From Streptococcus mitis B6 (GTDB lineage Bacteria > Bacillota > Bacilli > Lactobacillales > Streptococcaceae): 64,000 bases of DNA. The notes under the pieces were generated by a model. It made no database searches, had not been told where the DNA came from, and was given only the letters and a program-made list of their open reading frames with translations. Within the stretch, counting starts at the first letter, position 1. Each line of letters starts with the position of its first letter. A program made the position numbers and the translations under genes. The stretch covers positions 1,798,001 through 1,862,000 of the forward strand of contig NC_013853.1 in NCBI RefSeq assembly GCF_000027165.1. Direction: 5' to 3'. This document shows positions 39,085-55,518 of the stretch, piece by piece.

Positions 39085-40558
39085 CTATTTGATACCAGAC
39101 ATTAGTTTTTCAATACGTGGAACGTAGAAGAGTAAGATGATACTGAATACAATCGTAATTGCTCCAACAATTCCATAGTAAGCCACTTCAGTTTCGCTTG
39201 TATAAAATTTTACAATTTGAGCATTGATAGCTTGGGCAGCAGCATCACTCAAGAACCAGATAGACATCATTTGTGCTTGGAAGGATTTTGGTGCTAACTT
39301 AGTAGTGACTGATAGACCAATCGGCGAAATCAACATTTCACCCACAATCACAATAGCCCAACTCATAATCAACCAGAAAGGACTGACCTTAACATCTATT
39401 CCAAAGAGCATCCCTGGTAACATCATCCACAAGAAGGATAAACCTGCTGCAAATAAACCGTAAGCAAATTTCTTAGAAGAGGACGGTTGCTTTTTACCCA
39501 TTTTCCCCCACAACCACGCAAAAATCGGCACATAAATCATAATGAAAAGTGGATTGATACTTTGGAAAAAGCTAGATGGGAAATGAATCTGATTTCCAAA
39601 TACATTAATGTAAAGTCGAGTTTGATCATCCGCAAATAGAGCGAGAACAACAGAACCCTGCTCCTCAATCGACCAGAAGAGTACTCCAGCGATAAATAGA
39701 GGAATGTAGGCAAATACTCGGGATCTCTCAGTAGCAGTTATCTTCTGACTAGATAAAATTTTGAAGAAATAGTAGATTGGAATGATTACCGCAATTACTG
39801 TAAAGATATTAACAATCATATCCACGTTAAACTGGTGAGTAAAGACTAAGCCTATAACCACGAGAATAACTATGACAAGTGTAATCAGCAAGCGTTTAAT
39901 CAAGGTCTGCTGGTCCTTCTGTGAAAGTGGATCAGTAGGGTAAAGACTTGATTCAGGCAGGTATTTCTTCCCATCCAAAACATACTTTACCAGACCAAAG
40001 AACATCCCAACGGCAGCTAATGAGAAACCTAGATGGAAATTAACTTCCTGACCTAGATAACCCACTAAATAAGGGGCAACGAAGGCACCTAAGTTAATAC
40101 CAAAGACAAAGATACTAAAACCTGCATCCCGTCTATCATCCTCTTTCTCATAAATTCCCCCCACCATATCTGAGATATTGGGTTTTAAAAATCCAGTACC
40201 AAAGATAATCAAGGCAATAGAAAGATAGAGAGCCACTTGTCCAAAAGGTGTTGCCAAAGCAATATGCCCTAGCATAATCAGAATCCCACCGTAAAAGACA
40301 GTCTTACGGCTTCCTAAAATGCGGTCACTGACAAAACCACCGATAACCGAGGACAAAAATACCAGTGAGCCATAAATCGCCATAACCGCTGCAGCTGTGT
40401 GTCTTATCCATCCCCAACCCACCATCTTGCACACTATAGTACATGTAGTAAAGTAGGATAGCTCGCATCCCATAGTAAGAAAAGCGTTCCCACATCTCTG
40501 TAAAGAAGAGGGTGGACAAGCCCATAGGATGTCCAAAAAATGTTTTCTGTTTTTCCAT
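39085..40558 (-). pseudogene. dtpT: POT-family di/tripeptide transporter DtpT, frameshifted
   Basis: A proton-coupled peptide symporter gene split over two frames. The true start is the ATG at 40558 ([20 protein letters not shown]), with the POT signature [19 protein letters not shown]. At about 40394-40403 the frame changes inside GACACACAGC: upstream reads GLGMDKT, downstream continues [18 protein letters not shown] 2 bp expansion of the CA run, or an equivalent indel, explains it. The remaining sequence is open to the stop at 39085 with about 12 further membrane helices. A sequencing error should be excluded. Confidence 0.88.
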
Positions 40559-40733
40559 ATATATTCTCCTTTAGCGATATAATAATTCATTTTACAGAAT
40601 TTTCAAACAAATGTCAAACAAATCATGTTTGTTTTAGAAAATTTTCTGAAAAATCTATTTAGATAAGTTCCCACTTTATCCTCAATTAGAAAATATCAGA
40701 TAGGGATCTAATTAAATCAGAAAGTACAAAAAA

Positions 40734-40756
40734 GAACACCCCAAAAGGTGCTCTGT
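40734..40756 (-). terminator. probable original rpsI terminator (chromosomal side)
   Basis: Minus strand AGAGCACCTTTTGGGGTGTT followed by CTTTTTT lies just beyond att copy 1, in the position that a terminator holds after the rpsI stop codon. It is probably the native terminator, displaced about 14 kb from rpsI by the element array. Confidence 0.65.
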
Positions 40757-40779
40757 GTAAATATAGTAATTCTTTCGAA

Positions 40780-40829
40780 TTAACGTTTACTAAATTGTGA
40801 TGCTTTACGAGCTTTCTTAAGACCTGGTT
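40780..40829 (-). repeat. att copy 1 (outer right chromosomal junction)
   Basis: 50 bp identical to the 3' end of rpsI at 54546-54595, including stop codon. On the minus strand it encodes [16 protein letters not shown]. It is the outermost of four copies (40780, 42938, 46297, 54546) that delimit three integrated elements. Confidence 0.93.
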
Positions 40830-41097
40830 TTTTCTACATTATGATATTTATGATGAATTATGACTAAAATCAAGTAATTTAAAGAGATAAATCCTCAATT
40901 TTTACATATATAATCCTTTTAAAAATCGAGAGGTTATCAAAGGGTTATCACTTTTTTAGTTTTCGGAGCTTATGTAATTGAAAAATACGAAATACTGTAT
41001 CATAAAGATAATGTACAGTTTAGCAACAAATACACAGTTTCTTCGTTCCTGGACAATTTCTTTTTCTATCCTGAAGATATTTAAACAGTGCCAGATG

Positions 41098-41162
41098 TTA
41101 TTTCTAAACACTTAGAAATAATCAAATAAATTAAATATTATTTCTAAATATTTGAAAATAAT
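41098..41162. promoter_or_regulatory. two tandem palindromes upstream of the DUF4143 ATPase gene
   Basis: TTATTTCTAAACACTTAGAA plus TAA (41098-41121) is a palindrome, and a related one (TTATTTCTAAATATTTGAAA and onward) lies at 41138-41162, exactly 40 bp further. Two similar operator-like sites a few helical turns apart suggest cooperative binding of a regulator. Confidence 0.5.
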
Positions 41163-41198
41163 TACTATTTGTATTATACTATCTTTGAGGTATCTATT

Positions 41199-42407
41199 AT
41201 GAACTATATTAAAAGACCACATTATTTAGATTTTTTAAGAAGACATCGTGACCGCCAAATCATTAAAGTTGTGAGTGGAGTTAGACGAGCTGGTAAATCT
41301 GTTCTCTTTCAACTCTATAAAGAAGAGTTACTAGCAACTGGGGTAGACGAGGATCAGATTATATCCATCAATTTCGAAGATTTGAGTTACTATGAACTGA
41401 GAAATTTTCAAACATTATTTGCTTATATAAAAGAGCGGTTAGTTGAGGAGAAAACATACTATATCTTTTTAGATGAAATTCAACATGTTGAAAAATTTGA
41501 ACTGGTAGCAGATAGTCTATTTATCCTACCAAATGTTGACCTCTATTTGACTGGATCAAACGCCTACTTTATGAGTAGCCAATTAGCTACAAACTTGACC
41601 GGTCGGTATGTTGAGATAGAAGTTCTTCCATTGTCATTTGAAGAATACCTATCAGGTCAATCTCTCTCAGAGAATCTGAATACAACAGAAATTTTTAACA
41701 ATTATCTCTTTAGTGCTTTCCCTTACTTATTGCAAACATCATCTTACGCTGAAAAAATTGACTATCTCAGAGGAATATACAACTCCATACTGTTAAATGA
41801 TATTGTCACTAGATTGGGAAATCCAAATCCTACGATTATTGAGCGCATTGTCCGAACCCTTCTCAGTAGTACAGGTAGCTTAATATCAACAAATAAGATT
41901 CGCAATACCCTAGTCAGCCAAAATGTTTCAATATCCCATAATACTTTGGAAAATTATTTGACAACTTTGACAGATAGTTTACTTTTTTATTCCGTTCCAC
42001 GTTTTGATGTAAAAGGTCGAGCATTATTGCAACGCTTAGAAAAATATTATCCCGTTGATTTAGGTTTACGACATCTCTTATTACCAGACCACAAAGAAGA
42101 CATTGGGCATATCTTGGAAAATATTGTATATTTGGAATTGAGACGTAGATATTCACAAGTATATGTTGGTAATTTAGATAAGTATGAGGTTGATTTTGTT
42201 GTTGTAACTGATCTTGGTCACTACGCTTATTATCAAGTCAGTGAAACAACACTTGCTCCAGAAACACTAGACAGAGAACTTAGACCACTAGAAGCCATTA
42301 AAGATCAATTCCCCAAGTATCTATTAACAATGGATACGATTCAGCCAACAGCCAATTACAATGGAATTGAGAAGAAAAATATCATAGATTGGTTACTAGA
42401 AAAGTAG
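41199..42407 (+). CDS. AAA ATPase with DUF4143 domain
   Basis: The ATG at 41199 (GAGG 9 bp upstream) gives 402 residues. An AAA_14-type ATPase domain has Walker A GVRRAGKS (about 27-34) and Walker B YIFLDEIQ (about 90-96), a sensor-like LTGSNAYFMS, and a C-terminal DUF4143 domain (about 200-360) with nuclease-like NLDKYEVDFVV. The family is widespread in bacteria and archaea and often lies in mobile DNA; its role is not established. It is the only complete gene of element A. Confidence 0.88.
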   Translation: MNYIKRPHYLDFLRRHRDRQIIKVVSGVRRAGKSVLFQLYKEELLATGVDEDQIISINFEDLSYYELRNFQTLFAYIKERLVEEKTYYIFLDEIQHVEKFELVADSLFILPNVDLYLTGSNAYFMSSQLATNLTGRYVEIEVLPLSFEEYLSGQSLSENLNTTEIFNNYLFSAFPYLLQTSSYAEKIDYLRGIYNSILLNDIVTRLGNPNPTIIERIVRTLLSSTGSLISTNKIRNTLVSQNVSISHNTLENYLTTLTDSLLFYSVPRFDVKGRALLQRLEKYYPVDLGLRHLLLPDHKEDIGHILENIVYLELRRRYSQVYVGNLDKYEVDFVVVTDLGHYAYYQVSETTLAPETLDRELRPLEAIKDQFPKYLLTMDTIQPTANYNGIEKKNIIDWLLEK

Positions 42408-42485
42408 ATAATCATAAATCATACAGCTAACTAGATTTGTAACAGTCTGTTATCAATGATTCTACCCAAATCCTAACAAAATATA

Positions 42486-42842
42486 TGGAAAAAACATCAA
42501 AATGCTGAACTATCAAAGTTTGGAATTATCCAATCCGATGAACAATATGTCTTTACTTATATCGATATGAAGGGTAATGTTAATAGCCCTCTACACTCTG
42601 ACTATCTTAATAATAAAATGAAATCTGTCAAACGTCGTCATCCAGAACTTAAACATGCTACACCTCATAAATTACGACATACAGGAGCGACACTTGCTAA
42701 AAAGGCATGAATGAGCTTAGAAGCCATTTCTGAAGCATTAACTCATAGCGATACAATTACAACTAAAACTTATGTTAATGCTTCAAACATAGTTCCATTA
42801 TCTGCTGGACAAGTTGCCTACCAACATCTTAAAAACAAGTAG
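42486..42842 (+). pseudogene. integrase C-terminal fragment of element A
   Basis: The 119 codons match residues about 289-406 of the intact integrase at 53218 with few changes (for example NVNSPLHSDYLNNKMKSVKR). The N-terminal three quarters is missing, and the Gly codon in KKAGMSLEA is TGA (at about 42708). The HxxR, His and Tyr catalytic positions survive but the protein cannot be made. The sequence after the stop (TAGGGTAATTTTAGGGCAAA) also matches element C, so A and C belong to the same integrase family. Confidence 0.9.
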
Positions 42843-42869
42843 GGTAATTTTAGGGCAAATTTTTTTAGA

Positions 42870-42912
42870 AAGTATAGAAAAAAGCACCCATAAGGTAAAC
42901 TTTTGAGTGCTT
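42870..42912 (-). terminator. rpsI-type terminator at att copy 2
   Basis: Minus strand AAAGCACTCAAAAG, loop, ATGGGTGCTTTTTT: equivalent to the terminator at 54486. It shows that element A brought a terminator to replace the native rpsI one. Confidence 0.75.
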
Positions 42913-42937
42913 TGAAACGTTGATATAGTCGTATTGA

Positions 42938-42987
42938 TTAACGTTTACTAAATTGTGATGCTTTACGAGCTTTCTTAAGACCTGGTT
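42938..42987 (-). repeat. att copy 2
   Basis: 50 bp identical to the rpsI 3' end including the stop codon. It separates elements A and B. Confidence 0.93.
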
Positions 42988-43224
42988 GGAAAAACTATGA
43001 TTTGAATAACCTTCAGTAAATGCTTAAAATCAATGTTTTCCAACTTTTTCAGAAAACAGAATTTCATCTAATTTGAATAAATTTCAGTTGAATGGTGTGA
43101 ATTTCACCCCAAAAAATCAAAAAAATGAGCTAGAATGTACCGAAAAGTTCACACTACTATTTAGATGATTTTTTATTTTGCCTGTTTTTACCTATGGTCT
43201 TACCCACGACAAAAATTATAGAGC

Positions 43225-43260
43225 CAAAAAACCCTAGTCACACATTTGAACTAGGTTTTT
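43225..43260 (-). terminator. terminator downstream of the HxlR gene
   Basis: Minus strand ACCTAGTTCAAATGTGTGAC followed by TAGGGTTTTTTGG: an ACCTAGT/ACTAGGGT stem with T runs on both sides. Confidence 0.75.
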
Positions 43261-43352
43261 ACGTTGCTTTGATTAACAAGATTACCAAATCTTTCAGAAT
43301 TACATTTTCTATTTTATAGAAAAATATTAATAATAAATTATGTAAATTCAAT

Positions 43353-43682
43353 CTAATTTCTATAAGTTTGCTCCCATTTTTTCATTTCTTCAACGATACT
43401 TCTTAGAGCAATACCTTTTTTTGTCATTTTATATTCAACCTGTGGAGGCGATGTCGGTAAAACTTTTCTTGATAAAATACCTTCTTGCTCGAAATCATGT
43501 AACCGTTGAGCTAATATTCTAGGATTAATACCTTCTACACTACGCAAAAGACTACCATAATGTATATTACCATTAATAATTTCAGATAAAATCTCAAGAG
43601 TAAATTTACCCTTTAGTAAATTCAAGACCCTTCTTGCTGGACAAATTGATTTTTTCAAAGGTTGCATCTTGCAAGTCTCCAT
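43353..43682 (-). CDS. HxlR-family transcriptional regulator
   Basis: The 109-residue winged-helix protein has an N-terminal Cys in the usual position (KKSICPARRVLNLLKGKFTL) and the family pattern INPRILAQRLHDFEQEGIL. AGGAGG stands 6 bp before the ATG. It is divergent from the MFS efflux gene and probably represses it; HxlR proteins commonly sense electrophiles through that Cys. It is cargo of element B. Confidence 0.88.
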   Translation of the reverse strand: METCKMQPLKKSICPARRVLNLLKGKFTLEILSEIINGNIHYGSLLRSVEGINPRILAQRLHDFEQEGILSRKVLPTSPPQVEYKMTKKGIALRSIVEEMKKWEQTYRN

Positions 43683-43784
43683 TCATTTCCTCCTTTTTTG
43701 ATAGTTACTATACTTTTTTTCCCTTCTTGTTTCATAAATAATTACATGATAAGCTAATTATATCACTTGAAAGGGGAAATTACT

Positions 43785-43910
43785 ATGGATATTATAACTA
43801 AGTTTGACCGTATTGACGATATTCTCGGTTGAGCTGATGGATGATACTTTGATACTGGATATACTCAAGTAAAATATTTTCAGAAAGTTAAATATATTGC
43901 TTTTGATTGA
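43785..43910 (+). pseudogene. broken short ORF between the HxlR and MFS genes
   Basis: From an ATG with a good AAAGGGGAAA ribosome site the frame reads MDIITKFDRIDDILG, then TGA, ADG, TGA, YFDTGYTQVKYFQKVKYIAF, then TGA TAA. The stops suggest decay of a former gene. No family recognised. Confidence 0.45.
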
Positions 43911-43950
43911 TAAATGAAAATTGGTTTGATGAAATAACGGAGGAAGCTTG

Positions 43951-45321
43951 ATGAAAAAAACAAATACAAAAGCGCCAGCTTATCTACTTTTTATTCTTTC
44001 ACTAGGATACATTATGGCGGTCCTAGATACAACCGGAGTGGTTCTTGCTGTTCCCCATATTGAAACAGCTATGAGCGTCTCATTAGAGCAATCCATTTGG
44101 ATTATTAATGCCTACACACTAGCTTTAGGGTCTTTGCTCCTACTTTCAGGAAATTTAACAACAAAATATGGTGCTAAACGAATTTTATTAATTGGAATGA
44201 CAATTTTTACACTTGCCTCGTTAGGGTGCTCTTTTTCACCAAATATTGAAACATTAATTATACTTAGATTCATTCAAGGTTTCGGTACTTCTTTGTTCAT
44301 GCCAAGTTCATTAGCACTTTTATTCATTTCATACCCCGATTCTACTAAAAGAGCACGTATGTTAGGAATCTGGACAGCAATTATTTCTGTTGCAACCGGT
44401 ACTGGTTCTTTTATTGGTGGACTAATTATTAACTACTTCGGATGGAGGGGTATTTTCTTGGTCAATATTCCATTTGGAATTTTGACAGTAATTTCAATAT
44501 TACTTCTCGTGAAAAATAATATTGCCAATCTAAAGACCAGAATTGACATCTTTAGTAATATATTTCTGGTTACAACTATCGGAAGTCTAGTTATTTACCT
44601 TGTTGAAGGGAATCAATATGGTTATAGTAACTCAAATCTTTTATTGTTTCTTCTCCTATTTATATTATTTGCTATTGGTTTAGTAGTCCACGATAAAAAA
44701 AGTAAAACACCTATTGTTCCCCACCAACTATTAAAAAATGCTAAGTTTATTATCTCTAATCTATTAGGTTTAGTAGTTAACATTTCACTATATGGCATTG
44801 TTTTGGTGCTAGGACTCTATTTTCAAACTTATTTAAACCTTTCCTCAATGGTTTCTGGACTCCTCATTCTACCAGGAATGATTGTCTTAATTATTGGTAA
44901 TTTATTTTACGCACGTGCTGTAAAACGATTTTCCGTGGGAAGCCTCGCTACTGTCTCAATTATTTTTGCCATTGTAGGAGCAGCAGGAATTTTTGGAATT
45001 GGAGTTCTTTTTCATGAAATTCAACTATACATCCTAATTCCTTTATTTTCTTTAATGAGTCTAGGTATCGGAGTGTTAACTCCAGCAACTACAACCATTC
45101 TTATGGAAGCTGCTGGTCAAGAATTATCTGGAATTGCTGGTGCAACTCTAAACGCTAACAAACAGATTGGTGGACTTTTTGGTACAACAATTATGGGGAT
45201 TGTAACTACTAATTTATCCCATGATTGGAATATAGTCATCGTTATCGCATTTTTGGTTAACGTGATAATGTATATTGCTACTTGGTTAATTGCTAGTCGT
45301 TACCTTTATGGAAAAGAATAA
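43951..45321 (+). CDS. MFS drug efflux transporter, DHA2/EmrB-QacA type
   Basis: The ATG at 43951 (CGGAGGA upstream) gives 456 residues with about 14 membrane helices. DHA2 motifs include LDTTGVVLAVPHI in helix 1, the loop 2-3 motif GNLTTKYGAKRIL and RFIQGFGTSLFMPSS. Proton-driven export of lipophilic cations or drugs is likely; the substrate cannot be read from sequence. A divergent HxlR gene suggests inducible expression. It is the only intact putative resistance gene in the array. Confidence 0.9.
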   Translation: MKKTNTKAPAYLLFILSLGYIMAVLDTTGVVLAVPHIETAMSVSLEQSIWIINAYTLALGSLLLLSGNLTTKYGAKRILLIGMTIFTLASLGCSFSPNIETLIILRFIQGFGTSLFMPSSLALLFISYPDSTKRARMLGIWTAIISVATGTGSFIGGLIINYFGWRGIFLVNIPFGILTVISILLLVKNNIANLKTRIDIFSNIFLVTTIGSLVIYLVEGNQYGYSNSNLLLFLLLFILFAIGLVVHDKKSKTPIVPHQLLKNAKFIISNLLGLVVNISLYGIVLVLGLYFQTYLNLSSMVSGLLILPGMIVLIIGNLFYARAVKRFSVGSLATVSIIFAIVGAAGIFGIGVLFHEIQLYILIPLFSLMSLGIGVLTPATTTILMEAAGQELSGIAGATLNANKQIGGLFGTTIMGIVTTNLSHDWNIVIVIAFLVNVIMYIATWLIASRYLYGKE

Positions 45322-45331
45322 AACTAAACAG

Positions 45332-45366
45332 AACGCAATCAATTTAAAAGTTGATTGCGTTTTATA
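45332..45366 (+). terminator. MFS gene terminator
   Basis: AACGCAATCAA, TTTAAAAG, TTGATTGCGTT then TTA: an 11 bp stem shortly after the stop codon. Confidence 0.85.
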
Positions 45367-45447
45367 TTATTTCTCAGCACAATTACTCCAATCATCATAA
45401 TTTGCTTAATAAATAACTCAAAAAAAGACAACTTCAAGGTAATTTCT

Positions 45448-45959
45448 TTATAAATCTATCTTTTCAAATCGAATAACATCAAGTTCTTTGTCTGATTGGT
45501 CTTTATATAACACAATCAGATTGTCAATTTTCTTCTGAATATCTTTTTCATATTTAAGGTTAATAAGCTCTATCTTCTCCTCGTCAGACATAGTATTGTT
45601 GCTTCCCAATTTCAATGTTTGATTGAGTTTCTCTTTCATATAAGTTTTTTGTTCTACCTCTCGCTGGAATTTTGAGTAATCAAAAAGACTCTGTAACAGC
45701 AATTCTTCTTCTACCATACGAGCATACTGAAAATCATTTGCCAAACGTTCCAAATGCTCTTCCCACTTTAAATCCTCTTTCTTTTCTCCAAACTCACTAT
45801 AAGGAAAGAGTTCATCCACATCTATTTTTATAGCTTTCGCAATATCTTCTAGGCGTTCTCAACTGGGTTCGGTAGTGCCTTTCTCATTGTTAATAATTGT
45901 TTGTTTAGTTACACCTAGAATTTTTCCCAATTCTTTTTGTGTCATTCTTGCTTTTAACA
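45448..45959 (-). pseudogene. XRE-family regulator, frameshifted and truncated
   Basis: The minus strand encodes helix-turn-helix residues MTQKELGKILGVTKQ, then loses one base (ACAACAATT where ACAAACAATT would keep TIINNEKG in frame). It then meets TGA at 45861-45859 (TEPS*ERLEDIAKAI) before an open tail of 123 codons (MDELFPYSEF and onward). The N-terminus is cut off by the integrase fragment that begins at about 45960. It was probably the regulator of element B. Confidence 0.8.
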
Positions 45960-45971
45960 AACTGACTTAGT

Positions 45972-46199
45972 AATAAGATGAAATCAGTCAAACGCTGTCA
46001 TTAGGAACTTACTCACACCATACCTCACAAATTAAGACACACCGGAGCAACTTTGGCAAGGCAGGCTGGAACATCCTTAAACGCTATTTCAGAAGCACTT
46101 ACTCATAGCAACATCCAAATAACGAAGACTTATGTAAATACTACTGAAACAGTAAATCAAATAGCAGGAGAAATAGCTTTTAGAAGTCTCAAAAAGTAA
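45972..46199 (+). pseudogene. integrase C-terminal fragment of element B
   Basis: Reads NKMKSVKRCH, stop, ELTHTIPHKLRHTGATLARQAG and on to YVNTTETVNQIAGEIAFRSL, then TAA. It retains the HxxR, His and Tyr region but only about 75 codons. It differs from the element A and C integrases more than they differ from each other, so element B is a separate lineage with the same target. Confidence 0.88.
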
Positions 46200-46235
46200 T
46201 AGGGTGAACTTGGGGTGAATTTTCGTTTTTTGAAC

Positions 46236-46275
46236 AAAAAAAGACATCCAAGAGAAAATTCTTGAATGTCTGTAA
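46236..46275 (-). terminator. rpsI-type terminator at att copy 3
   Basis: Minus strand AGACATTCAAGAATTTTCTC followed by TTGGATGTCTTTTTTTG: GACATTCAAG pairs with CTTGGATGTC. It differs in sequence from the terminators at copies 2 and 4 but has the same position. Confidence 0.75.
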
Positions 46276-46296
46276 ACGTTGATATAATCGTATTGA

Positions 46297-46346
46297 TTAA
46301 CGTTTTGAGAATTGTGATGCTTTACGAGCTTTCTTAAGACCTGGTT
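46297..46346 (-). repeat. att copy 3, with synonymous changes
   Basis: Identical to the other copies over the 35 bp core (TTGTGATGCTTTACGAGCTT and onward). The last codons differ: TTCTCAAAACGT instead of TTTAGTAAACGT, still encoding FSKR and the stop. It marks the boundary between elements B and C. Confidence 0.92.
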
Positions 46347-46450
46347 TGGCTAACTATTAAATTAAAATGTAGCAAATAGTTATAAACAGGGACTTTTTTA
46401 CAATCAATTGTCAATTAAATTTTATCTATTTTTAAATAATTTCATTTAAA

Positions 46451-46510
46451 TAGGGCAAATTTTTTTATCAAATAAAAAATACGAGTCAGATATCTCATAA
46501 ATTTGCCCTA
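46451..46510. promoter_or_regulatory. inverted integrase arm-type sites, left end of element C
   Basis: TAGGGCAAATTTT (46451-46463) and its inverse AAATTTGCCCTA (46499-46510) are 35 bp apart. The same word recurs just after the integrase stop at the other end, the arrangement of tyrosine-integrase arm sites. Confidence 0.65.
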
Positions 46511-46619
46511 ATTAATGAAATCAAGAAGTACTAATTAAACCTTAACTATGACAAAACAACCCCTTATAGGTATACATCACTATTAAAAAAATTTTTTTCT
46601 AAAAAACTTACAAAAATCC

Positions 46620-46648
46620 TTGACATTATTTTTAGATAGGATTATAAT
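46620..46648 (+). promoter_or_regulatory. perfect consensus promoter of element C
   Basis: TTGACA (46620-46625), 17 bp, TATAAT (46643-46648). It lies 49 bp upstream of the first ORF and could drive the whole plus-strand gene block. Confidence 0.85.
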
Positions 46649-46696
46649 AAAAGTATAGTCGTAGTTAGACAAAAAATATTTTCGTGGAGGCCCTTT

Positions 46697-47092
46697 ATGG
46701 AAATTTACACTTATTCCGATTTTCTTCAAGAGAAAACTGCTTTGACTTTTGAAGATGCACATAAAATCTATAATGAACTAATTAGTTCATTTGACATAAA
46801 AGATCCAATTTTCCTTGATGACTGGACAATGTTGATTGAGTTAGCTGCAGAGTATACTGAAATTCGTGTCAAATCTGCAACATTATCAAAAGAAAGACAA
46901 GGCAAGCATGGGGAGCTTAGAACTTCTGCTCATAATGCTTTCATCGTACAATTGAATGCACTAAAAAGCGAAGTCGAATCTAAAGGTAAAGATACTAGTT
47001 GGTTTGATAAAATCACGGATGACCGACAACGGCAAGGAGATTTTGCAAACTATTTAGCATACATTTACGCTGTAAGCACTAGATCATCATAA
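46697..47092 (+). CDS. unrecognised protein, first ORF of element C
   Basis: The 131-residue protein (start MEIYTYSDFLQEKTALTFED) has a GTGGAGG ribosome site and a consensus promoter. It is predicted soluble and helical, with a basic SKERQGKHGELRTSAHNAF segment. No family recognised. A leading position under a strong promoter suggests an early or regulatory role, which is inference only. Confidence 0.75.
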   Translation: MEIYTYSDFLQEKTALTFEDAHKIYNELISSFDIKDPIFLDDWTMLIELAAEYTEIRVKSATLSKERQGKHGELRTSAHNAFIVQLNALKSEVESKGKDTSWFDKITDDRQRQGDFANYLAYIYAVSTRSS

Positions 47093-47170
47093 AATAAAAA
47101 TACTCTTCAAACAGTCGCTTAAGATTCTCAAAACTTAATATTACCGTAATAAAACTGAAAGGAAAAACTT

Positions 47171-48040
47171 ATGGAACATCAAGAAGTTATTGATTGGTTG
47201 AGATATTGTGATGAAAATAATATCAAACCATGGGAATGGGATTTTAAAAATTGTTATTCCGATACGCTAACACCTGATAGTATTACAAATTTTTTAAAAT
47301 ATAAAAACGGTGAACTTACTGATCCAACTACTTTTCGAGTTACAGAACTGCTTGGTAAGGGTGCTGACTGTGATAAGGAAGCATTCTATTTATATAAATG
47401 TTTGGGGTGGCAAAACTCGGAAAATTGTATTACTAGAGGGGAAACTCTTAACTCTTATTTAACTACATTCACTCGTTCTATTACTAAAACACCTCACTAT
47501 AAAAGTATATATAAAAAAATTGGGATAGATGAAGAGCAATATCTAAACGAACAATATCCAACTCTATATAATAACAATAATTATGAGAACTTTATCATCA
47601 TCAAAGAAAATAAAGAGCAATTTAAAAAATTTGCCAAATTAACTCACACAATTGGAAATTTCACCGTATTACCTCATTGGATAAATACGGGGAGATATAA
47701 CTTCTCAAAAGATTATTGGGATATTACAATGCTTTCTCTCCAAGAGTGGCTCAATCTTTTACCTAACGATACATGGAAATGTTTCGTAGATGCTTTCTAT
47801 TTACAACCATACGTAAATGAGCAATATGAAACTGAATTGTTTTGGGAAGGTCATACATCCGAAAGACCAAATATGGAGCGTCAACATTTTCCTATTTTCC
47901 TCAAAAAAGTCAATGAGCGAATTGAAGAACGTGGTAAATTTATCATTAAACAAATCTGTGATAAGTTAGATCAAAAAGATTTCAATTTCTATAAGGAAAT
48001 TAAAAATATGGATACAATAAGATTTTCTAATGAATTTTAA
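47171..48040 (+). CDS. DUF6994-like protein, function unknown
   Basis: The 289-residue protein is rich in Trp, Tyr and Asn. It contains FAKLTHTIGNFTVLPHWINT near residue 160, which resembles the HTxGNLTLL...N segment of DUF1524-type nucleases but lacks an obvious HNH set. I recall similar proteins grouped as DUF6994 in Firmicutes. AGGAAA lies upstream. It has no membrane segment. A cargo gene, possibly defence-related, is a guess from the nuclease-like segment only. Confidence 0.65.
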   Translation: MEHQEVIDWLRYCDENNIKPWEWDFKNCYSDTLTPDSITNFLKYKNGELTDPTTFRVTELLGKGADCDKEAFYLYKCLGWQNSENCITRGETLNSYLTTFTRSITKTPHYKSIYKKIGIDEEQYLNEQYPTLYNNNNYENFIIIKENKEQFKKFAKLTHTIGNFTVLPHWINTGRYNFSKDYWDITMLSLQEWLNLLPNDTWKCFVDAFYLQPYVNEQYETELFWEGHTSERPNMERQHFPIFLKKVNERIEERGKFIIKQICDKLDQKDFNFYKEIKNMDTIRFSNEF

Positions 48041-48052
48041 AAAGGAGGATTT

Positions 48053-48523
48053 GTGGTCAGAGTATATAAAAGTGTTCGTCTTGCATACGAAGCCAAAGTA
48101 TGGATAGATGAGCTTATTCAAAAAAAAGAGCGTAAAATCAAAGAACTAAATCAGGATAATTTTCTAAACACCCTAGAACAAACACTTCTATCAAATCATT
48201 ACGATGAATTAAATGGTGTTTCTTTCAATATCGTTTTAAAAGCTTCTATCGGAAGTATTATTGAAGAAGCATATAGAAATACAAAAAATTACTCCATTGC
48301 TAAATGGCAGAATTTGCGTCAAGAAATGGAAAAAGATATCAAAACTGTCAATCCCAGTCTAGAAACATCGGTAACCCCTAGACTCTATTTAGATGAAAAT
48401 GTTCTAAATGGTCTTGATGAATTTCGATATCATTTAATGAAAGAAGATGGTGCTACTAGATTACCAAGGCTTAGTTACATCATTAAGCTTGTTGTATATT
48501 CCTATTGGAAGACACAACAATAA
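48053..48523 (+). CDS. unrecognised protein, possible DNA-binding accessory
   Basis: A GTG start (AAGGAGG 5 bp upstream) gives 156 residues beginning MVRVYKSVRLAYEAKVWIDE, a basic amphipathic opening, with a second similar segment RLYLDENVLNGLDEFRYHL near residue 125. The two halves look like repeated short folds of ribbon-helix-helix character, but no family can be assigned. It starts 12 bp after the preceding gene and is followed by a hairpin. Confidence 0.65.
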   Translation: MVRVYKSVRLAYEAKVWIDELIQKKERKIKELNQDNFLNTLEQTLLSNHYDELNGVSFNIVLKASIGSIIEEAYRNTKNYSIAKWQNLRQEMEKDIKTVNPSLETSVTPRLYLDENVLNGLDEFRYHLMKEDGATRLPRLSYIIKLVVYSYWKTQQ

Positions 48524-48546
48524 CCTAAGCAGAATTTGCTTAGGTT
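48522..48546 (+). terminator. hairpin after the 48053 gene
   Basis: AACCTAAGCA, loop GAATT, TGCTTAGGTT: a perfect 10 bp stem starting at the stop codon. The downstream tract (CTCTATAT) is a weak T run, so it may be an attenuator or a protein site. The CTAAGCA/TGCTTAG arms recur at 51955 and 52011. Confidence 0.6.
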
Positions 48547-48599
48547 CTCTATATAAACAATTGTATAGTTGTTTTACTACTTAAAAAGGATGGTTGTTT

Positions 48600-49919
48600 A
48601 TGTTTAAACTAAAAAAAGAAGCTAACTTAAAAAGAAATTATTTTATTACAAGTTCACGTTTAAAATGGTTACATCTGATAATAATTGTCTTTTCTATCTT
48701 TTCTTTATTAGGTTTAATAGTAAGTATTAGAGCTCCTGCTTTTATTCAAATCTTATGTATTGTCTTTGGTATTCTAGCAATCTATAAAATAAATAATAAA
48801 TTAAAAGGTTTTAGATACGAACTAGATTTTGATTTAATTATCAGGGAAAGCTTACTATTTGTTTTATATACAAATCATCTCTACACTTCGGAAAAGGATA
48901 ATTCAGGTTACGAAAAAATTATTAGAAGTGCGATTTTAAAATATGAATTAGATAATCAAAACGGTCGTATTATCATTAAAGCGCTTATCAGAGGTGACGA
49001 ATTTAGTAAAAAGGTTCAGACACTTGATGATGTATTAGCTGGAGTTCTAGAACTTGAACTAGAAGAAAAAATTACTCATCCTAATATTGTGGAATATCAC
49101 TTTTACTACAAGAAACCTGATAGACTAATATTATCACCCCATAATCATAAAAAAGAGATAGATAGTCTTGATATAGACTTAGGATATGATATAACTTATA
49201 ATCCTATAAAATGTCCTCATATTTTAGTTTCAGGTGGTACAGGTAGCGGAAAATCTATATTTATATCTTTTTTAATTATTGAACTTCTTAAAAGAAATTC
49301 AACACTATATATTGCAGATCCTAAGAACAGTGATTTAGGTAGTTTATCTCATTATTTAAGCGATAAATATGTAGCTACAACTCCCAATAATATTGCTCGT
49401 ATTGTACGTTTGGTAGTTGAACAAATGCAGGAACGATATCAAGCCATGCGTGATAACTTTCATTACGGTTCAAATTTTGCCGAACACGGCTTTAAACCAG
49501 TATGGCTTATATTTGATGAAATGGGAGCATTTCAAGCTTCAGCAACAGATAAAAAATCTAAAGAAGTTATCGCCGAAGTAATGGACGGTATCAAACAAAT
49601 TATCCTACTAGGGCGACAAGCAGGAGTATTTATTCTTATATCTGCTCAACAAATGAGAGCTGAAACTCTAAACACTGATCTTAGAGATAATTTAGGTTTG
49701 AGAATAGCTTTAGGAGCAAACTCAATAGAGGGATACCGCATGGTATTTGGCACGGCTACACCTGATAAGTTTAAATCTATTGAAGAAAAGGGAGCAGGAT
49801 ATCTTTATATGCAGGGCTCAGGAAAAGAAAAAGCTCAATATTGGGAAAGTCCTTATCTTGATACAACACAATTCGATTTTATAAAAGAACTACAATTATA
49901 CGTAACAAAGTCAAAATAA
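48600..49919 (+). CDS. FtsK/SpoIIIE-family ATPase (TcpA/ConQ-like coupling protein)
   Basis: The ATG at 48600 (AAAAAGGA upstream) gives 439 residues; a TTG six bases earlier is less likely. Two membrane helices near the N-terminus (about 20-60) precede a cytoplasmic motor with Walker A SGGTGSGKS (about 210-217), Walker B VWLIFDEMG (about 300) and the arginine-rich ILLGRQAGVFIL segment. The layout matches coupling proteins that feed DNA to a conjugation channel rather than the much longer chromosomal FtsK. No channel genes are present, so a helper element would be needed. Confidence 0.88.
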   Translation: MFKLKKEANLKRNYFITSSRLKWLHLIIIVFSIFSLLGLIVSIRAPAFIQILCIVFGILAIYKINNKLKGFRYELDFDLIIRESLLFVLYTNHLYTSEKDNSGYEKIIRSAILKYELDNQNGRIIIKALIRGDEFSKKVQTLDDVLAGVLELELEEKITHPNIVEYHFYYKKPDRLILSPHNHKKEIDSLDIDLGYDITYNPIKCPHILVSGGTGSGKSIFISFLIIELLKRNSTLYIADPKNSDLGSLSHYLSDKYVATTPNNIARIVRLVVEQMQERYQAMRDNFHYGSNFAEHGFKPVWLIFDEMGAFQASATDKKSKEVIAEVMDGIKQIILLGRQAGVFILISAQQMRAETLNTDLRDNLGLRIALGANSIEGYRMVFGTATPDKFKSIEEKGAGYLYMQGSGKEKAQYWESPYLDTTQFDFIKELQLYVTKSK

Positions 49920-49923
49920 TTTC

Positions 49924-49992
49924 AATAGATATTTTTGCTTAAATTCAATAGATTTTCAGCAAAAATATCTATTCCTCATCGCTTAAGCGATG
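49924..49992. repeat. nested inverted repeats between the FtsK-like gene and the next ORF
   Basis: AATAGATATTTTTGCT (49924-49939) and AGCAAAAATATCTATT (49958-49973) are perfect 16 bp inverted arms, followed by the perfect palindrome CATCGCTTAAGCGATG (49977-49992). There is no T tract, so a simple terminator is unlikely. Candidates are an origin of transfer, a replication structure or an mRNA-processing site. Confidence 0.75.
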
Positions 49993-50014
49993 ACAAAAAG
50001 AAATGAGGTATTAT

Positions 50015-50329
50015 ATGAAAATTAACGATTTTCTTAAACCAGAATTATTAGGAAATAAATTCGTGGCAGTAAAAGGATATACAGAAGTTCTAGACAGAGA
50101 AACAAATAAACCTGTAGCACTACGTCTTAATGTTTCAATTCAAGATGAGGATTCTGATTTCTTTATGGAAATGATTCAGATAAAAGTTAATACGTTATCT
50201 CCTACTGCCACTCCTCAATTATTATCGGATAAAAAAACATGCCCCGTTAAATTATCTAATTTAACAGTTGGACAATTTAACGGAAATTTATGGTTTTCTT
50301 GTAACGATGTAGTCCCTATTTCTAAGTAA
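50015..50329 (+). CDS. small unrecognised protein, possibly DUF961-like
   Basis: The ATG at 50015 (ATGAGGTATTAT upstream) gives 104 residues starting MKINDFLKPELLGNKFVAVK, with no membrane segment. Small beta-rich proteins near the coupling ATPase of Tn916/ICEBs1-type elements are often DUF961, but no motif here proves it. Confidence 0.6.
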   Translation: MKINDFLKPELLGNKFVAVKGYTEVLDRETNKPVALRLNVSIQDEDSDFFMEMIQIKVNTLSPTATPQLLSDKKTCPVKLSNLTVGQFNGNLWFSCNDVVPISK

Positions 50330-50345
50330 TTTGGTGATATTACTT

Positions 50346-51074
50346 ATGGCTAAACTTTTTGCAATATCTGATATACACGGTTACCTAGATGAGTTCATAT
50401 GCGCTCTCAGTAAAGTAGATTTATCTGATAAAAATAATCGTCTTATTCTAATCGGAGACTACATTGACAATGGACTTCAATCTTTTCAAGTTATTTCCAA
50501 AATAATTGCACTTGAGGAACTTTATCCTAATCAAATTATCACTCTATTAGGAAATCATGAAGAATGGTTTTATGATTGGTTGATTTTAGAAAAACCTACT
50601 TCTTCTCCATTTTCAGAAACAATAAAAAGTTTCTTCTCTTCGGAGGAATTGAACCATATTTTTAAATCGAATGCTAACAACTTTGAAACAAGTGTTAGAA
50701 ATGAAATTAAAAATAATATCAAGTTCAACTCATTCATAAACTGGTTTAAAAAACGATATAGGGATAAACGCTATTATGAAACTGATACCCAAATTTTTGT
50801 TCATGCTGGCATTGATGAAGAAGCTGACAAGCTTTGGAAAGAGCTAACGAGTTCAGAGATGTTTACAAATAAATTTCCTCTTACCACTGGTGGATTTTTA
50901 AAAGATATTGTTTCTGGTCATGTTGCTTCTTGGGAAGTAGCTAAAGATAAAAGTTACCTAGGTAAGATTTACCATGATAGTAAAAGTCATTATTTTATTG
51001 ATGGAGATGTAAAGAATAGCAAAACAATACCTGTTCTTTGCTATGATACAGCTTCAAAATCCTATCAATATTAA
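50346..51074 (+). CDS. metallophosphoesterase 1 (PPP/ApaH-like)
   Basis: The ATG at 50346 gives 242 residues. The calcineurin-like signature is complete: SDIHGY, GDYIDNG, GNHEEW, VHAGID and SGHV. These residues bind the dinuclear metal centre of PPP-family phosphatases, including ApaH-, PrpA- and PrpE-type enzymes. The substrate (phosphoprotein or dinucleotide) cannot be read from sequence. It has no signal peptide and is followed by a second member of the superfamily. Confidence 0.87.
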   Translation: MAKLFAISDIHGYLDEFICALSKVDLSDKNNRLILIGDYIDNGLQSFQVISKIIALEELYPNQIITLLGNHEEWFYDWLILEKPTSSPFSETIKSFFSSEELNHIFKSNANNFETSVRNEIKNNIKFNSFINWFKKRYRDKRYYETDTQIFVHAGIDEEADKLWKELTSSEMFTNKFPLTTGGFLKDIVSGHVASWEVAKDKSYLGKIYHDSKSHYFIDGDVKNSKTIPVLCYDTASKSYQY

Positions 51075-51159
51075 AAAAATACTTCTCTATTACATAAAAA
51101 ATTTAAGCAAGCTTAATTCTATTCTTATACTAATAACAAAAATAAAGAGGGGAATCTAT

Positions 51160-51933
51160 ATGAAGACATTATTAATTGGCGACTTACATTTAAAATCTCA
51201 ACTAATTTTACCTATTGTTGACAGGATTATCCAAACACATAATATTAAAAGAGTCATTTTTCTTGGTGATTATGTTGATTTACATGGACAAACTAACAAT
51301 ATCCAACTATATGCCAAAGATCTCACTTTTCTATACGATTGGAAAATAGAAAAAGAATTAAATTCAATAGAAGTTATTAACCTTATGGGCAATCACGATG
51401 TTTATTATTTACTTGGAGAACAAGTTCCTTTCTCAATTCAAAATCTAGAGGTCTTTTTCGCAGTTCAACAATTATTACAAGATTTGAATTTACAAATAGC
51501 TTATCAACTAGATGATTATTTAGTTAGCCATGCTGGTTTCAATTTGCTATTTGACCCAAAAGAATGGCACTTTAAACCTTTTACTGAAGAATATGAAGAA
51601 GAATTAGAAATCCTTGCTAATGCAGTAGGATATATGCGTGGAGGAGGAGATATGGCTGGTTCTCCTTTATGGGCTCATTTTAGAGAACTAGAGCTAATCC
51701 CTAATAACAACTACCCTAAACAAATTGTTGGACATACCCCTAAAGAATCTATCGATATTTCTAAAAATGTTATTGGTATAGATACTTTTTCATTATATAT
51801 TGACAAAGATAATAAATATCAATTTATTGGTAACGGAGATCTGCTGGTTTATGACCAAGGACATCTTGAAATCATTTCAACTGACTGGGCTACAGACCAA
51901 ACATTAAAACAATTACCTAAACCTCAAATTTAA
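51160..51933 (+). CDS. metallophosphoesterase 2 (calcineurin-like)
   Basis: The ATG at 51160 (AGAGGGG 8 bp upstream) gives 257 residues. Motifs: GDLHLK, GDYVDLHG, GNHDVYY, SHAGFN and GHTP. It is only distantly similar to the preceding phosphoesterase, so this is not a recent duplication. The stop is 4 bp before a strongly structured region. Confidence 0.87.
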   Translation: MKTLLIGDLHLKSQLILPIVDRIIQTHNIKRVIFLGDYVDLHGQTNNIQLYAKDLTFLYDWKIEKELNSIEVINLMGNHDVYYLLGEQVPFSIQNLEVFFAVQQLLQDLNLQIAYQLDDYLVSHAGFNLLFDPKEWHFKPFTEEYEEELEILANAVGYMRGGGDMAGSPLWAHFRELELIPNNNYPKQIVGHTPKESIDISKNVIGIDTFSLYIDKDNKYQFIGNGDLLVYDQGHLEIISTDWATDQTLKQLPKPQI

Positions 51934-51937
51934 CTAC

Positions 51938-52055
51938 TACTTCTCATCATGTGACTAAGCAAAACTGCCGACTGGAAGTCGGCAAGCTGGAAGCGTGTTT
52001 AGCAGAGCGATGCTTAGAAACACATGATAGAAGTATGGAGGAGCTTTGCTTCTCC
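51938..52055 (+). other. large branched stem structure upstream of rep
   Basis: Nested pairings: 51938-51953 with 52021-52035 (15 bp, one bulged C), then CTAAGCA (51955-51961) with TGCTTAG (52011-52017). Inside is the hairpin TGCCGACT-GGA-AGTCGGCA (51966-51984). A separate hairpin GGAGGAGC-TTT-GCTTCTCC follows at 52037-52055. More than 35 base pairs in 118 bp of otherwise AT-rich DNA is far beyond a terminator. It may be a rolling-circle origin, an oriT or a structured RNA. Confidence 0.75.
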
Positions 52056-52104
52056 TAGTTTATTTATTATATAAGCAAACATTACGAGAAAAGGAGATGA
52101 TTTT

Positions 52105-52899
52105 GTGAGTTACAATCGCAAAATTATCCGAACTTCTTCGTACCTTGAAATATGGGAATACGAATCTCCAATTTTTTCAAATGATACTACTCAAATTGAT
52201 GAAGAACACATTTCACTAAAAGAAAAGAAGAAACGTAGAACTTTTGAAGAACTCACAACTGCTGAACAAGATGAACGAATAAAAAGAATTTCTAACACTC
52301 GTAAAAATTCTAAATGGAAACTTCAACGCCTAATAGATACAAATTTTGATGAAAGAACTAGTTTCCTTACCCTTACAACTAAAGAAAATATACAAAACAG
52401 ATATGAGTTTAATTTACTTTTTGATAAATTTATTAAACGTTTAAACTATCACATATACCATTCCAAAAAAAGACTTATTAAATATATTGCAGTATTAGAA
52501 CGACAAAAAAGGGGAGCGTGGCATGCACACATTCTCCTTTTTTCATTTCCTTTTATCCCTCATAAAGAATTACTGACAATTTGGGGGTTAGGTGCAGTTC
52601 GGATAAACAAACTACATAACTTAGATGATTCTTCTAATGCTGGTCGTTATGTTGGAAAATATATGGAAAAAGGCATAGGACAGGAATTATTAGAGAGTCT
52701 AGGAAAGAAGGCTTTTTATTCTTCTCGTAATTTACAAAAGCCTGAAGAGATAAAATTATTTACAAGTGAATCCTTAGATAGCCTTGTTAAGAATGAAGAT
52801 ATCCTATATGAAAGCAACTATATTAGCAAAGTATTTCGAAAAGGACACTTAATTGACAATAAAGTCAAATACAAAAAAATAAAGTTAAGTAAGGAGTAA
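52105..52899 (+). CDS. HUH-endonuclease replication initiator/relaxase-like Rep
   Basis: The GTG at 52105 (AAAAGGAGATG upstream) gives 264 residues. HUH motifs: motif 1 FLTLT (87-91), motif 2 WHAHILLF (139-146, H-A-H metal ligands) and motif 3 YVGKYMEKG (182-190) with the likely nicking Tyr and Lys. Such proteins nick one strand at an origin and start rolling-circle replication or transfer. The adjacent folded region is the obvious candidate target. It could equally be called a plasmid- or phage-type Rep or a small relaxase. Confidence 0.87.
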   Translation: MSYNRKIIRTSSYLEIWEYESPIFSNDTTQIDEEHISLKEKKKRRTFEELTTAEQDERIKRISNTRKNSKWKLQRLIDTNFDERTSFLTLTTKENIQNRYEFNLLFDKFIKRLNYHIYHSKKRLIKYIAVLERQKRGAWHAHILLFSFPFIPHKELLTIWGLGAVRINKLHNLDDSSNAGRYVGKYMEKGIGQELLESLGKKAFYSSRNLQKPEEIKLFTSESLDSLVKNEDILYESNYISKVFRKGHLIDNKVKYKKIKLSKE

Positions 52900-52906
52900 G
52901 GAAAAA

Positions 52907-53176
52907 ATGCAAGTTATTCTACCAACAGAACAAGTTCAAGAAATACAGTCGATGATTACTAATCTCTTGCAAAACGAAATTTCTCATTTCAAAGAAGATT
53001 TAGGTTTAGATAGTCCTTACCTTAACAAGGGGCAAACTTGCAAATATCTAGGGATATCTAACAATACATTAGATGGCTGGATACAAAAAGGGCTACCCGT
53101 TATTAAAATTGGTAAGACTGTACGTTTCAATAAAAATGAAATTGATAAGTGGCTTTGTAGAAAAGCTATGCTATAA
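52907..53176 (+). CDS. xis: excisionase (MerR-like helix-turn-helix)
   Basis: The 89-residue protein has a C-terminal HTH_17-type domain (YLNKGQTCKYLGISNNTLDG and onward to IGKTVRFNKNEIDKWL). It lies between rep and the integrase gene, the usual place for Xis, which bends DNA at att sites to favour excision. It starts 7 bp after rep. Confidence 0.88.
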   Translation: MQVILPTEQVQEIQSMITNLLQNEISHFKEDLGLDSPYLNKGQTCKYLGISNNTLDGWIQKGLPVIKIGKTVRFNKNEIDKWLCRKAML

Positions 53177-53217
53177 TATCTCTAATGATATATCCTGACT
53201 CGTAAAAGGAGAACATC

Positions 53218-54438
53218 ATGACAGTTACAAAAACAAGTAGTAACACTTACAATCTTAAAGTGTATATACCTAAAGAAATCCGACCTAAAATGGGGATTAA
53301 AGGAAATCACTTTGTTAAACGCTATAAAACAAGAAAGGAGGCTAAAGAAGCTGAATTAGAAATTCTAACAAAGATACATCAACTTGAAAATGGAGAGGAT
53401 ATCCTACTCCCTAAAACTAGTGATATTCTTTTCTCTGAGTTCTTTAATAATATTTGGTGGGATTCATACAAAGCTGGTCAAACAACTTCGACAACTAAGC
53501 CTCCAACACAGGTTACTATTGATAATACTGAAACTGTTTTTAGAAAGCATATCTTACCAATGTTCGGTAATTATTCAATCAATTTTCTGAACCAGAATAA
53601 GCAAGTCGTACTAAACTTAATGACTGCGAAAGCTGAAGAGTATGCTAATTTCAAGGTTATTCGAAGCTATGTAAACTCAATTTTCGATTGGGCTGAGGAA
53701 TTAGAGTACATAGAATCAAATAGATTATCCAAGACAATTAAGCGAATTAAAGCTACCAAAAAGCTAAAACTCCAAGACTCCAAAAATGAGGAAGACTTGT
53801 ATCTATCTAGTGAAGAATTACAAGATTGGTTTGATGCTTTTAGAGAAGATTTGGAGAACGATAAATTATCACTAAAAGATTATGTCCTATTCTTTACAAC
53901 CTTTATTTTGAGCGATAGAAAATCAGAATCCTATGCTCTACATTGGAAAAACATAGACTTGGCAAATGCTCAAATTGACTTAAGGCATGCACTTGACAAA
54001 TATAAAAATGTGAAGTCAACAAAAGGAAATAAGAAAACGATTTTTTCAATTCCTAGTTACCTTGTATCACTTCTTTCAGAATGGAAAAAACAACAGAAAT
54101 ATGAGTTAGCGAAATTTGGTATAATGCAAACATCCGATCAACTAGTCTTTACCTATATAGATACGAAAGGTAATGTAAATAGCCCTCTACACGTTGATTA
54201 TCTCAATAACAAAATGAACTCCGTAAAAAGACGACACCCAAAGTTAAAACACGCTACACCTCATAAATTACGACATACAGGAGCGACACTTGCTAAAAAG
54301 GCAGGAATGAGCTTAGAAGCCATTTCTGAAGCATTAACTCATAGCGATACAATTACAACTAAAACTTATGTTAATGCTTCAAACATAGTTCCTTTATCTG
54401 CTGGACAAGTTGCCTACCAACATCTTAAAAACAAGTAG
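53218..54438 (+). CDS. int: tyrosine integrase of element C
   Basis: The 406-residue protein has an N-terminal arm-binding domain (1-60), a core-binding SAM-like domain (about 70-170) and a catalytic domain. Catalytic residues: Arg234 (in LSDRKSE, where TGLRxSE is more usual), HKLR at 349-352, His375 (LTHSD) and nucleophile Tyr384 (TKTYVN). AAAAGGAG precedes the ATG. Its C-terminal quarter is nearly identical to the fragment at 42486. It should recombine within the 3' end of rpsI, 108 bp beyond its stop. Confidence 0.94.
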   Translation: MTVTKTSSNTYNLKVYIPKEIRPKMGIKGNHFVKRYKTRKEAKEAELEILTKIHQLENGEDILLPKTSDILFSEFFNNIWWDSYKAGQTTSTTKPPTQVTIDNTETVFRKHILPMFGNYSINFLNQNKQVVLNLMTAKAEEYANFKVIRSYVNSIFDWAEELEYIESNRLSKTIKRIKATKKLKLQDSKNEEDLYLSSEELQDWFDAFREDLENDKLSLKDYVLFFTTFILSDRKSESYALHWKNIDLANAQIDLRHALDKYKNVKSTKGNKKTIFSIPSYLVSLLSEWKKQQKYELAKFGIMQTSDQLVFTYIDTKGNVNSPLHVDYLNNKMNSVKRRHPKLKHATPHKLRHTGATLAKKAGMSLEAISEALTHSDTITTKTYVNASNIVPLSAGQVAYQHLKNK

Positions 54439-54475
54439 GGTAATTTTAGGGCAAATTTTAGGGCAAATTTTTGTA
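54438..54475. promoter_or_regulatory. direct arm-type repeats, right end of element C
   Basis: Three related words follow the integrase stop: TAGGGTAATTTT, AGGGCAAATTTT and AGGGCAAATTTT. They match the inverted pair at 46451-46510. Confidence 0.65.
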
Positions 54476-54485
54476 GAAAGTACAG

Positions 54486-54521
54486 AAAAAAGCACCCATA
54501 GGGCAAACCTTTGAGTGCTTT
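54486..54521 (-). terminator. rpsI terminator carried by element C
   Basis: Minus strand AAAGCACTCAAAGG, loop, ATGGGTGCTTTTTT, 25 bp past the rpsI stop. It belongs to the element rather than to the original chromosome. Confidence 0.85.
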
Positions 54522-54545
54522 GAAACGTTGATATAATCGGATTGA

Positions 54546-54595
54546 TTAACGTTTACTAAATTGTGATGCTTTACGAGCTTTCTTAAGACCTGGTT
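54546..54595 (-). repeat. att copy 4, inside intact rpsI
   Basis: The last 50 bp of the functional rpsI gene, stop included. Its sequence is the reference for the three other copies. Confidence 0.93.
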
Positions 54596-54938
54596 TCTTA
54601 CGTTCAACTTTACGTGAGTCACGTGTAAGAAGTCCTGCGCGTTTCAATGAATCGCGGAAGTCTGGGTCTACTTGAAGAAGGGCACGAGCGATACCGTGAC
54701 GGATAGCTCCTGATTGACCAGCGTATCCACCACCTACAACGTTAACGAAAACGTCGTATGAACCTGCAGTTGAAGTAACTGCGAATGGTTGGTTGATTAC
54801 AAGACGAAGGTCAGCGTGTGGGATGTACTCTTCAACATCTTTTTTGTTAACAGTGATTTTACCAGTTCCTGGAACAAGGCGAACGCGTGCAACAGCGTTT
54901 TTACGACGTCCAGTACCTGCATATTGTGCTTGTGACAT
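54546..54938 (-). CDS. rpsI: 30S ribosomal protein S9
   Basis: S9 binds 16S rRNA in the small-subunit head, and its C-terminal tail reaches the P-site tRNA. The 130-residue protein is complete, ending [16 protein letters not shown]. The final codons are part of the element attachment site, and integration leaves the encoded protein unchanged. It lies 18 bp after rplM in the universal L13-S9 operon. Confidence 0.98.
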
Positions 54939-55512: not shown

Positions 55513-55518
55513 CTACTA

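Follow-up and report, generated by a model that had tools for sequence, protein, structure and literature searches.

How did a gene for ribosomal protein S9 come to be followed by three further copies of its own 3′ end? The question is raised by rpsI (54546–54938, minus strand) of Streptococcus mitis B6, whose genome is a single contig of 2.15 Mb. The window analysed here is the whole 64-kb stretch NC_013853.1, bases 1798001–1862000, and positions are given within it. We consider it highly probable that three small integrative elements, inserted one after another at the 3′ end of rpsI by site-specific recombination, account best for this locus.

Repeated rpsI ends, integrases and sites in relatives

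A search with the 50-nt core of the rpsI end, in which four positions were left free and up to three mismatches were tolerated, gave exactly four matches in the window, all on one strand, at 40780, 42938, 46297 and 54546. A previous sequence-only reading of this DNA had placed four copies of about 50 bp at these positions; all of them were found and there was no fifth. One hundred shuffles of the window, used as a control, gave 0 matches (chance expectation, 0), and a repeat analysis grouped all four copies into a family of 55 nt. Each copy codes for one shared 15-residue C-terminal end with its stop codon. Just before the shared 15 residues, copies 1 and 3 have K and copy 2 has Q, and copy 3 deviates synonymously at codons 127–128, with TTC TCA rather than TTT AGT.

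The rpsI-proximal copy of the attachment site (att) is formed by the last 50 bp of the gene (54546–54595). The other three lie at 46297–46346, 42938–42987 and 40780–40829, the last of these with the native rpsI terminator and flank to its left. Between the copies are three intervals: C (46347–54545, 8.2 kb), B (42988–46296, 3.3 kb) and A (40830–42937, 2.1 kb). The order from the gene outward is rpsI-att-C-att-B-att-A-att-native terminator, and the outer flank holds a POT-family transporter gene, which we take to be dtpT.

Searching the genome with the C integrase showed a full-length integrase in C (aligned over 53218–54435) and remnants in the other two units, both on the plus strand. The remnant of A (42477–42839) corresponds to query residues 286–406 at 86% identity with one internal stop, and that of B (45957–46196) to residues 326–405 at 60% identity with two internal stops. 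Their lengths, 121 and 80 residues, are close to the 119 and 75 codons or so proposed before beside an intact gene in C. The integrase or its fragment ends 110 bp (C), 100 bp (B) or 98 bp (A) from the right-hand att copy, as would be expected from the earlier claim that every interval closes with an integrase or a piece of one at that copy. The right ends of A and C share 86% identity across about 460 bp.

We then compared the locus with those of 118 genomes of the genus, 116 of which gave an rpsI match, this genome included. The stretches taken downstream of rpsI from the 115 others measured up to about 19.5 kb, and far less at contig ends. The proposed check against empty rpsI loci could be run. 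In locus L150 rpsI, the native terminator and the flank are contiguous (91% over 408 aligned nt), and a second rpsI end was not found in 18.4 kb. In three loci, L037 (S. hohhotensis), L038 (S. mitis SK667) and L039 (S. infantis), no unit other than C separates rpsI from its native terminator; in L038, the window's outer-flank transporter gene comes beyond C and the terminator. Relatives thus have the empty or singly occupied site that is expected of a composite island. The empty site, the C-only sites and decayed units shared with relatives all support serial site-specific accretion, as had been claimed from the letters alone.

The terminator of the outer flank fits the same picture. Its predicted hairpin (40733–40754, minus strand) lies about 13.8 kb from rpsI here and directly behind rpsI in 9 of the 116 loci, in most of which other DNA or more copies follow. 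The suggestion that the outermost terminator (there placed at 40734–40756) is the displaced native one therefore holds up.

Extra rpsI ends are common in this sample. With a threshold of at least 62% identity over 51 nt to the rpsI end of the respective genome, we counted none in 64 loci, one in 33, two in 15 and three in 4 (n = 116, window included), so that 19 loci have at least two; these counts are approximate, because copies go unseen on short contigs and part of the matches are degenerate. In this distribution the window sits at the upper end. In L117 (genome G076), about 100 nt of an element right end with its terminator is fused to the native flank and the distal att copy is absent, which looks like the scar of a former element.

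A mechanism consistent with these results would run as follows. The 3′ end of rpsI would serve as attachment site for tyrosine integrases of small integrative elements, and integration would recombine the last 50 bp or so of the gene with a matching element sequence. The last rpsI codons and the stop would then come from the element, together with a new terminator, and the old end would be displaced outward as a second copy; both steps are suggested by the copies themselves. Three successive integrations would have taken place, the later ones apparently at the rpsI-proximal copy. C should be able to excise by its own integrase and excisionase, and its Rep/relaxase together with its FtsK/TcpA-like protein should allow replication, or mobilization through a borrowed conjugation machine. 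A and B would have lost their integration and transfer genes through deletion and stop codons, with att sites and cargo remaining, and would move only if the C integrase recombined the outer copies.

The alternative that survives best is block arrival, in which an A-B or A-B-C composite was excised, transferred and integrated once, or a shuffling of units by homologous recombination between att copies or integrase remnants. We regard it as possible, though rather unlikely. S. mitis ColumbLawn (L111) has the same ATPase-integrase junction and internal stop as A (557/561 nt), and there the unit lies second from rpsI, with another kind of element proximal to it; a unit that is not self-mobile is thus common to two strains. 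(L158 was treated as the same contig as L111.) In S. hohhotensis L270, taken as the contig of L037, C is proximal and an A-type ATPase unit lies farther out, with about 3.5 kb between them. The similarity of the A and C right ends would also suit recombination between units, and composite transfer is named as possible in the passages of PMC5704250. However, C stands alone before the native terminator in L037–L039, and A, B and C occur jointly in the window and in no other of the 116 loci. Stepwise accretion would produce four att copies, but so would a block.

Codons, terminators and polarity of entry

Serial accretion should leave marks on rpsI itself. Our codon comparison covered 52 close relatives (window included), of which 39 were classed and 13 belonged to neither class. 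At sites with the native terminator, codons 127–128 are TTT AGT in 8/8, whereas TTC TCA or TTC TCT is found in 28/31 of the sites where an integrase, whole or fragmentary, lies beside rpsI. None of 2000 permutations gave an equally strong association, and none of the codons before 127 has a comparable one. Within single loci, the Ser-128 codon differs as expected between the proximal and the native-terminator copy in 10 of 11 cases. From this pattern by site class and these within-locus pairs, insertion appears to exchange the last rpsI codons for synonymous ones, the crossover lying 5′ of codon 127. The one divergent copy of the window would be explained in the same way, since TTC TCA is found in the copy at 46297, which belongs to B.

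A hairpin with a T-run in the direction of rpsI transcription is predicted at the right ends of A (42881–42913), B (46242–46271) and C (54489–54521, now behind rpsI), all on the minus strand, and a fold is also predicted at the native site. Each element right end thus has a terminator-like fold, so rpsI would keep a predicted terminator after every insertion. That gene ends carried by att sites restore target genes is older general knowledge.

The polarity of entry was counted by a script from adjacent, att-separated units, one with an intact integrase (taken as an open frame of 340 residues or more) and one without. The map sought two integrase families only, and the genomes are not independent. 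The intact unit was rpsI-proximal in 14 pairs and distal in 1, and both units were intact in 5. The 14 pairs come from this window, L114, L119, L132, L148, L153, L157, L158, L169, L184, L192, L201, L203 (second pair) and L221; the outer integrase of L114 is an uninterrupted frame of 302 residues. Six loci with no att copy between their integrase traces (L136, L159, L173, L177, L210 and L218) were excluded; L159 and L210 would be forward if counted. The polarity rule is already stated for S. salivarius in the passages of PMC7563491, where it is put down to entry at the target-gene end.

Three forward pairs (L132, L148 and L192) have as their outer unit a segment with a malolactic enzyme gene; this segment perhaps lacked an integrase from the start. 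This gene lies between rpsI 3′ ends in 10 of the 116 loci (L124, L132, L143, L148, L162, L186, L190, L192, L194 and L195), its assignment being by NCBIfam NF041582, above cut-off, as checked for L195 only. In the six loci compared the segment measures 4.7 kb and has no integrase open reading frame (ORF); its other ORFs are presumably LysR-like, helix-turn-helix (HTH) and permease-like. A search for literature on a malolactic gene at rpsI found nothing relevant.

A bolder proposal, which we hold to be doubtful, is that the rpsI end acts as a polarized cassette platform. Integrase-less, att-flanked units, such as the A ATPase, the B efflux pair and the 4.7-kb malolactic segment, would pass between strains by the integrase of an intact proximal element, and each arrival would rewrite the last codons and the terminator. 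Entry would take place almost only at the rpsI-proximal copy, because only there would the coding flank of rpsI complete attB.

Gene content of the three units

C encodes 10 proteins, four of which (131, 289, 156 and 108 aa) have no Pfam match. The genes discussed here are all on the plus strand. The integrase (53218–54438) has a Phage_integrase domain and is preceded by an excisionase-like HTH protein (52907–53176), with HTH_17 and the TIGR01764 excisionase domain above cut-off. Further upstream are a rolling-circle replication (RCR) initiator and putative relaxase (52105–52899, PF23343), two calcineurin-like metallophosphoesterases (51160–51933 and 50331–51074, domain matches) and an FtsK/SpoIIIE-domain protein, likely a TcpA-type coupling protein (48594–49919, domain match). 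A candidate nick or transfer origin (51965–52060, plus strand) is suggested by three predicted hairpins upstream of rep, in a stretch that is 82–99% conserved in 5 relatives. C thus appears to have its own integrase and excisionase, as an integrative and mobilizable element (IME) would. It is flanked by direct att repeats and is present in some genomes and absent from others, as is expected of such an element.

The first two genes of C code for the 131-aa (46697–47092) and 289-aa (47171–48040) proteins. Searches of Pfam, PADLOC, NCBIfam and PHROGs left both without a match; in a relaxed Pfam scan the former again had none and the latter two, both below cut-off. The 289-aa protein belongs to a conserved family of unknown function with 259 relatives. 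Among the 120 of these that were listed, the named members are hypothetical or uncharacterized, and the sources include Streptococcus and Abiotrophia. A near-invariant THTIGNF stretch was seen in this protein. The gene pair is present at 75–95% DNA identity in L036–L039 and was undetected in S. porci L041, where phosphoesterase relatives persist; the pair therefore looks like cargo of C. In L041 the phosphoesterase relatives are apparently in reverse order with respect to C (50331–51933).

We also considered C as an integrative and conjugative element and rejected this assignment. Complete type IV secretion genes are lacking: no pore protein of such a system was recognised among the 10 C proteins, the FtsK-domain protein was the only candidate, and the VirB4 model reached 17.6 bits against a cut-off of 643.1.

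Integrases, excisionase-like HTH proteins and Rep proteins also occur in phage satellites. That C is a satellite of this kind, like the phage-inducible chromosomal islands, and not a mobilizable element seems to us very improbable. It would draw on weak terminase-family matches of the FtsK-domain protein (phrog_2666, 1.1e-05) and of the HTH protein (phrog_57, 1.3e-4). But the first is far behind the FtsK match of the same protein (4.3e-36), the FtsK domain and the HTH account for both more readily, and capsid or structural genes are absent from the 10 C proteins. Moreover, the passages of PMC5357655 describe streptococcal IMEs in which an FtsK/TcpA-like gene lies upstream of the one for an RCR initiator.

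The cargo of A is an AAA_14/DUF4143 ATPase gene (41199–42407, plus strand; Pfam and PADLOC), whose product matches the PADLOC candidate PDC-S01 at 2.6e-150. A defence role is thus a candidate one, given by the database label. The A-type gene was found in 8 of the 116 rpsI stretches, window included, with at least 66% identity over at least half of the gene length. The assignment of the A integrase fragment draws both on the search with the C integrase and on the comparison with relatives.

B carries an HxlR-family regulator (43353–43682, minus strand; domain match) and a major facilitator superfamily (MFS) transporter of the DHA2 efflux kind (43951–45321, plus strand), which scored 227.8 bits with TIGR00711, just below the cut-off of 230.2. 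In genome G231 a B unit is bounded by two att copies; its HxlR and MFS are 100% and 99% identical to those of the window, and about 2.55 kb of extra DNA with three ORFs lies between them. The window copy probably lost these ORFs, because the ends of two of them are still readable by eye at the deletion site (43785–43938, plus strand; junction near 43906). The stretch 45440–45972 matches other streptococcal loci, and the B integrase remnant is unlike that of the G231 unit, which makes B a mosaic. This stretch includes an ORF (45448–45819, minus strand; 79–87% DNA identity, no Pfam match) that we would guess to be a regulator remnant. HxlR-MFS cargo was found at 14 loci (L230–L243), with an att copy nearby in 4 (L231–L234); L243 belongs to the G231 unit.

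A and B both retain att copies at their two ends together with cargo and have lost transfer genes and intact integration genes, by which they resemble cis-mobilizable elements (CIMEs). That the repeated rpsI ends are segmental duplications made by slippage or homologous recombination, and not att sites, is hardly credible: the malolactic segments without an integrase ORF could be read in this way, but in each unit of the window an integrase, whole or decayed, stops about 100 bp short of the copy, other species have C as a unit bounded by the same ends, and the repeated length is about 50 bp and not that of a gene.

Several points weigh against serial accretion and the account of it given above. 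Decay is not graded outward. The earlier claim that older elements decayed distally stands insofar as A and B are decayed and lie outside intact C, and fails as a smooth gradient, for the middle fragment, that of B, is shorter and more divergent than the outermost one. The outer position of A suggests a greater age than that of B, yet the integrase remnant of A is less eroded. The window is the single exception among the 11 within-locus pairs: C itself has TTT AGT, and rewriting is invisible here. In L121 an intact integrase is distal to a decayed one (a second integrase family, confirmed by Pfam), and L218, which would be reverse if counted, may be another such case, no att copy being seen between its integrase traces. 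At nine genomes' loci (L230 and L235–L242) no att copy was detected in the 1.5-kb flanks of the HxlR-MFS pair, so this pair is not always att-borne. The Rep of C counts as a relaxase by analogy, and excision and transfer of the elements are what we infer from sequence.

Known systems and the meaning of the locus

That elements accrete at rpsI is already well established, and the present locus is a further case with good documentation. The passages of PMC5357655 describe IMEs and tandem accretion at rpsI, three integrase families, and TcpA with RCR relaxases. Those of PMC7563491 report 37 composite islands, 4 of them of three elements and 16 in rpsI, with decayed units most distal, and those of PMC5704250 give a three-step accretion model. 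The window array is of the same kind, and was not matched to a named island in these parts of the three sources. C resembles the IMEs of PMC5357655 in its tyrosine integrase, in its FtsK-domain gene upstream of an RCR initiator and in its size, which is within their 5–18 kb; its Rep matches PF23343, a model not named in those passages, which speak of a PHA00330 group. IMESag-rpsI of Streptococcus agalactiae also integrates at rpsI, and its circular form was sought by PCR. According to the passages of PMC5090054, it has a MobV relaxase and a RelBE toxin-antitoxin, whereas C has an RCR-type Rep and an FtsK-like protein.

What our analysis adds is the rewriting of codon 128, the element-borne terminators, the frequency of extra rpsI ends and the polarity count. 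A word search of the available parts of PMC5357655 and PMC7563491 found no mention of rpsI codon rewriting or element-borne terminators, and one of the available parts of PMC5090054, PMC4701971 and PMC5704250 found none of element-borne rpsI terminators. A literature search on terminators or synonymous rewriting by such elements returned nothing on point, as judged by titles and the beginnings of abstracts.

On the other side of rpsI, an Rfam scan of 38000–58000 gave nothing besides an L13 leader RNA (RF00555, 55427–55510). Close to it, upstream of rplM, lies a transposase-like ORF (55639–56847) with HTH_38 as its only Pfam match and with 21-nt repeats around it; we take it to be of the IS30 kind.

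The locus documents the stacking of small mobile elements at an essential gene whose end they leave intact. Cargo, here a candidate defence gene and an efflux pair, remains att-flanked after the death of its carrier. The rewritten codons would offer an easily read sign, in the sequence of a ribosomal gene, that its end was once occupied, and the 14:1 polarity makes the cause of gene-adjacent entry directly testable.

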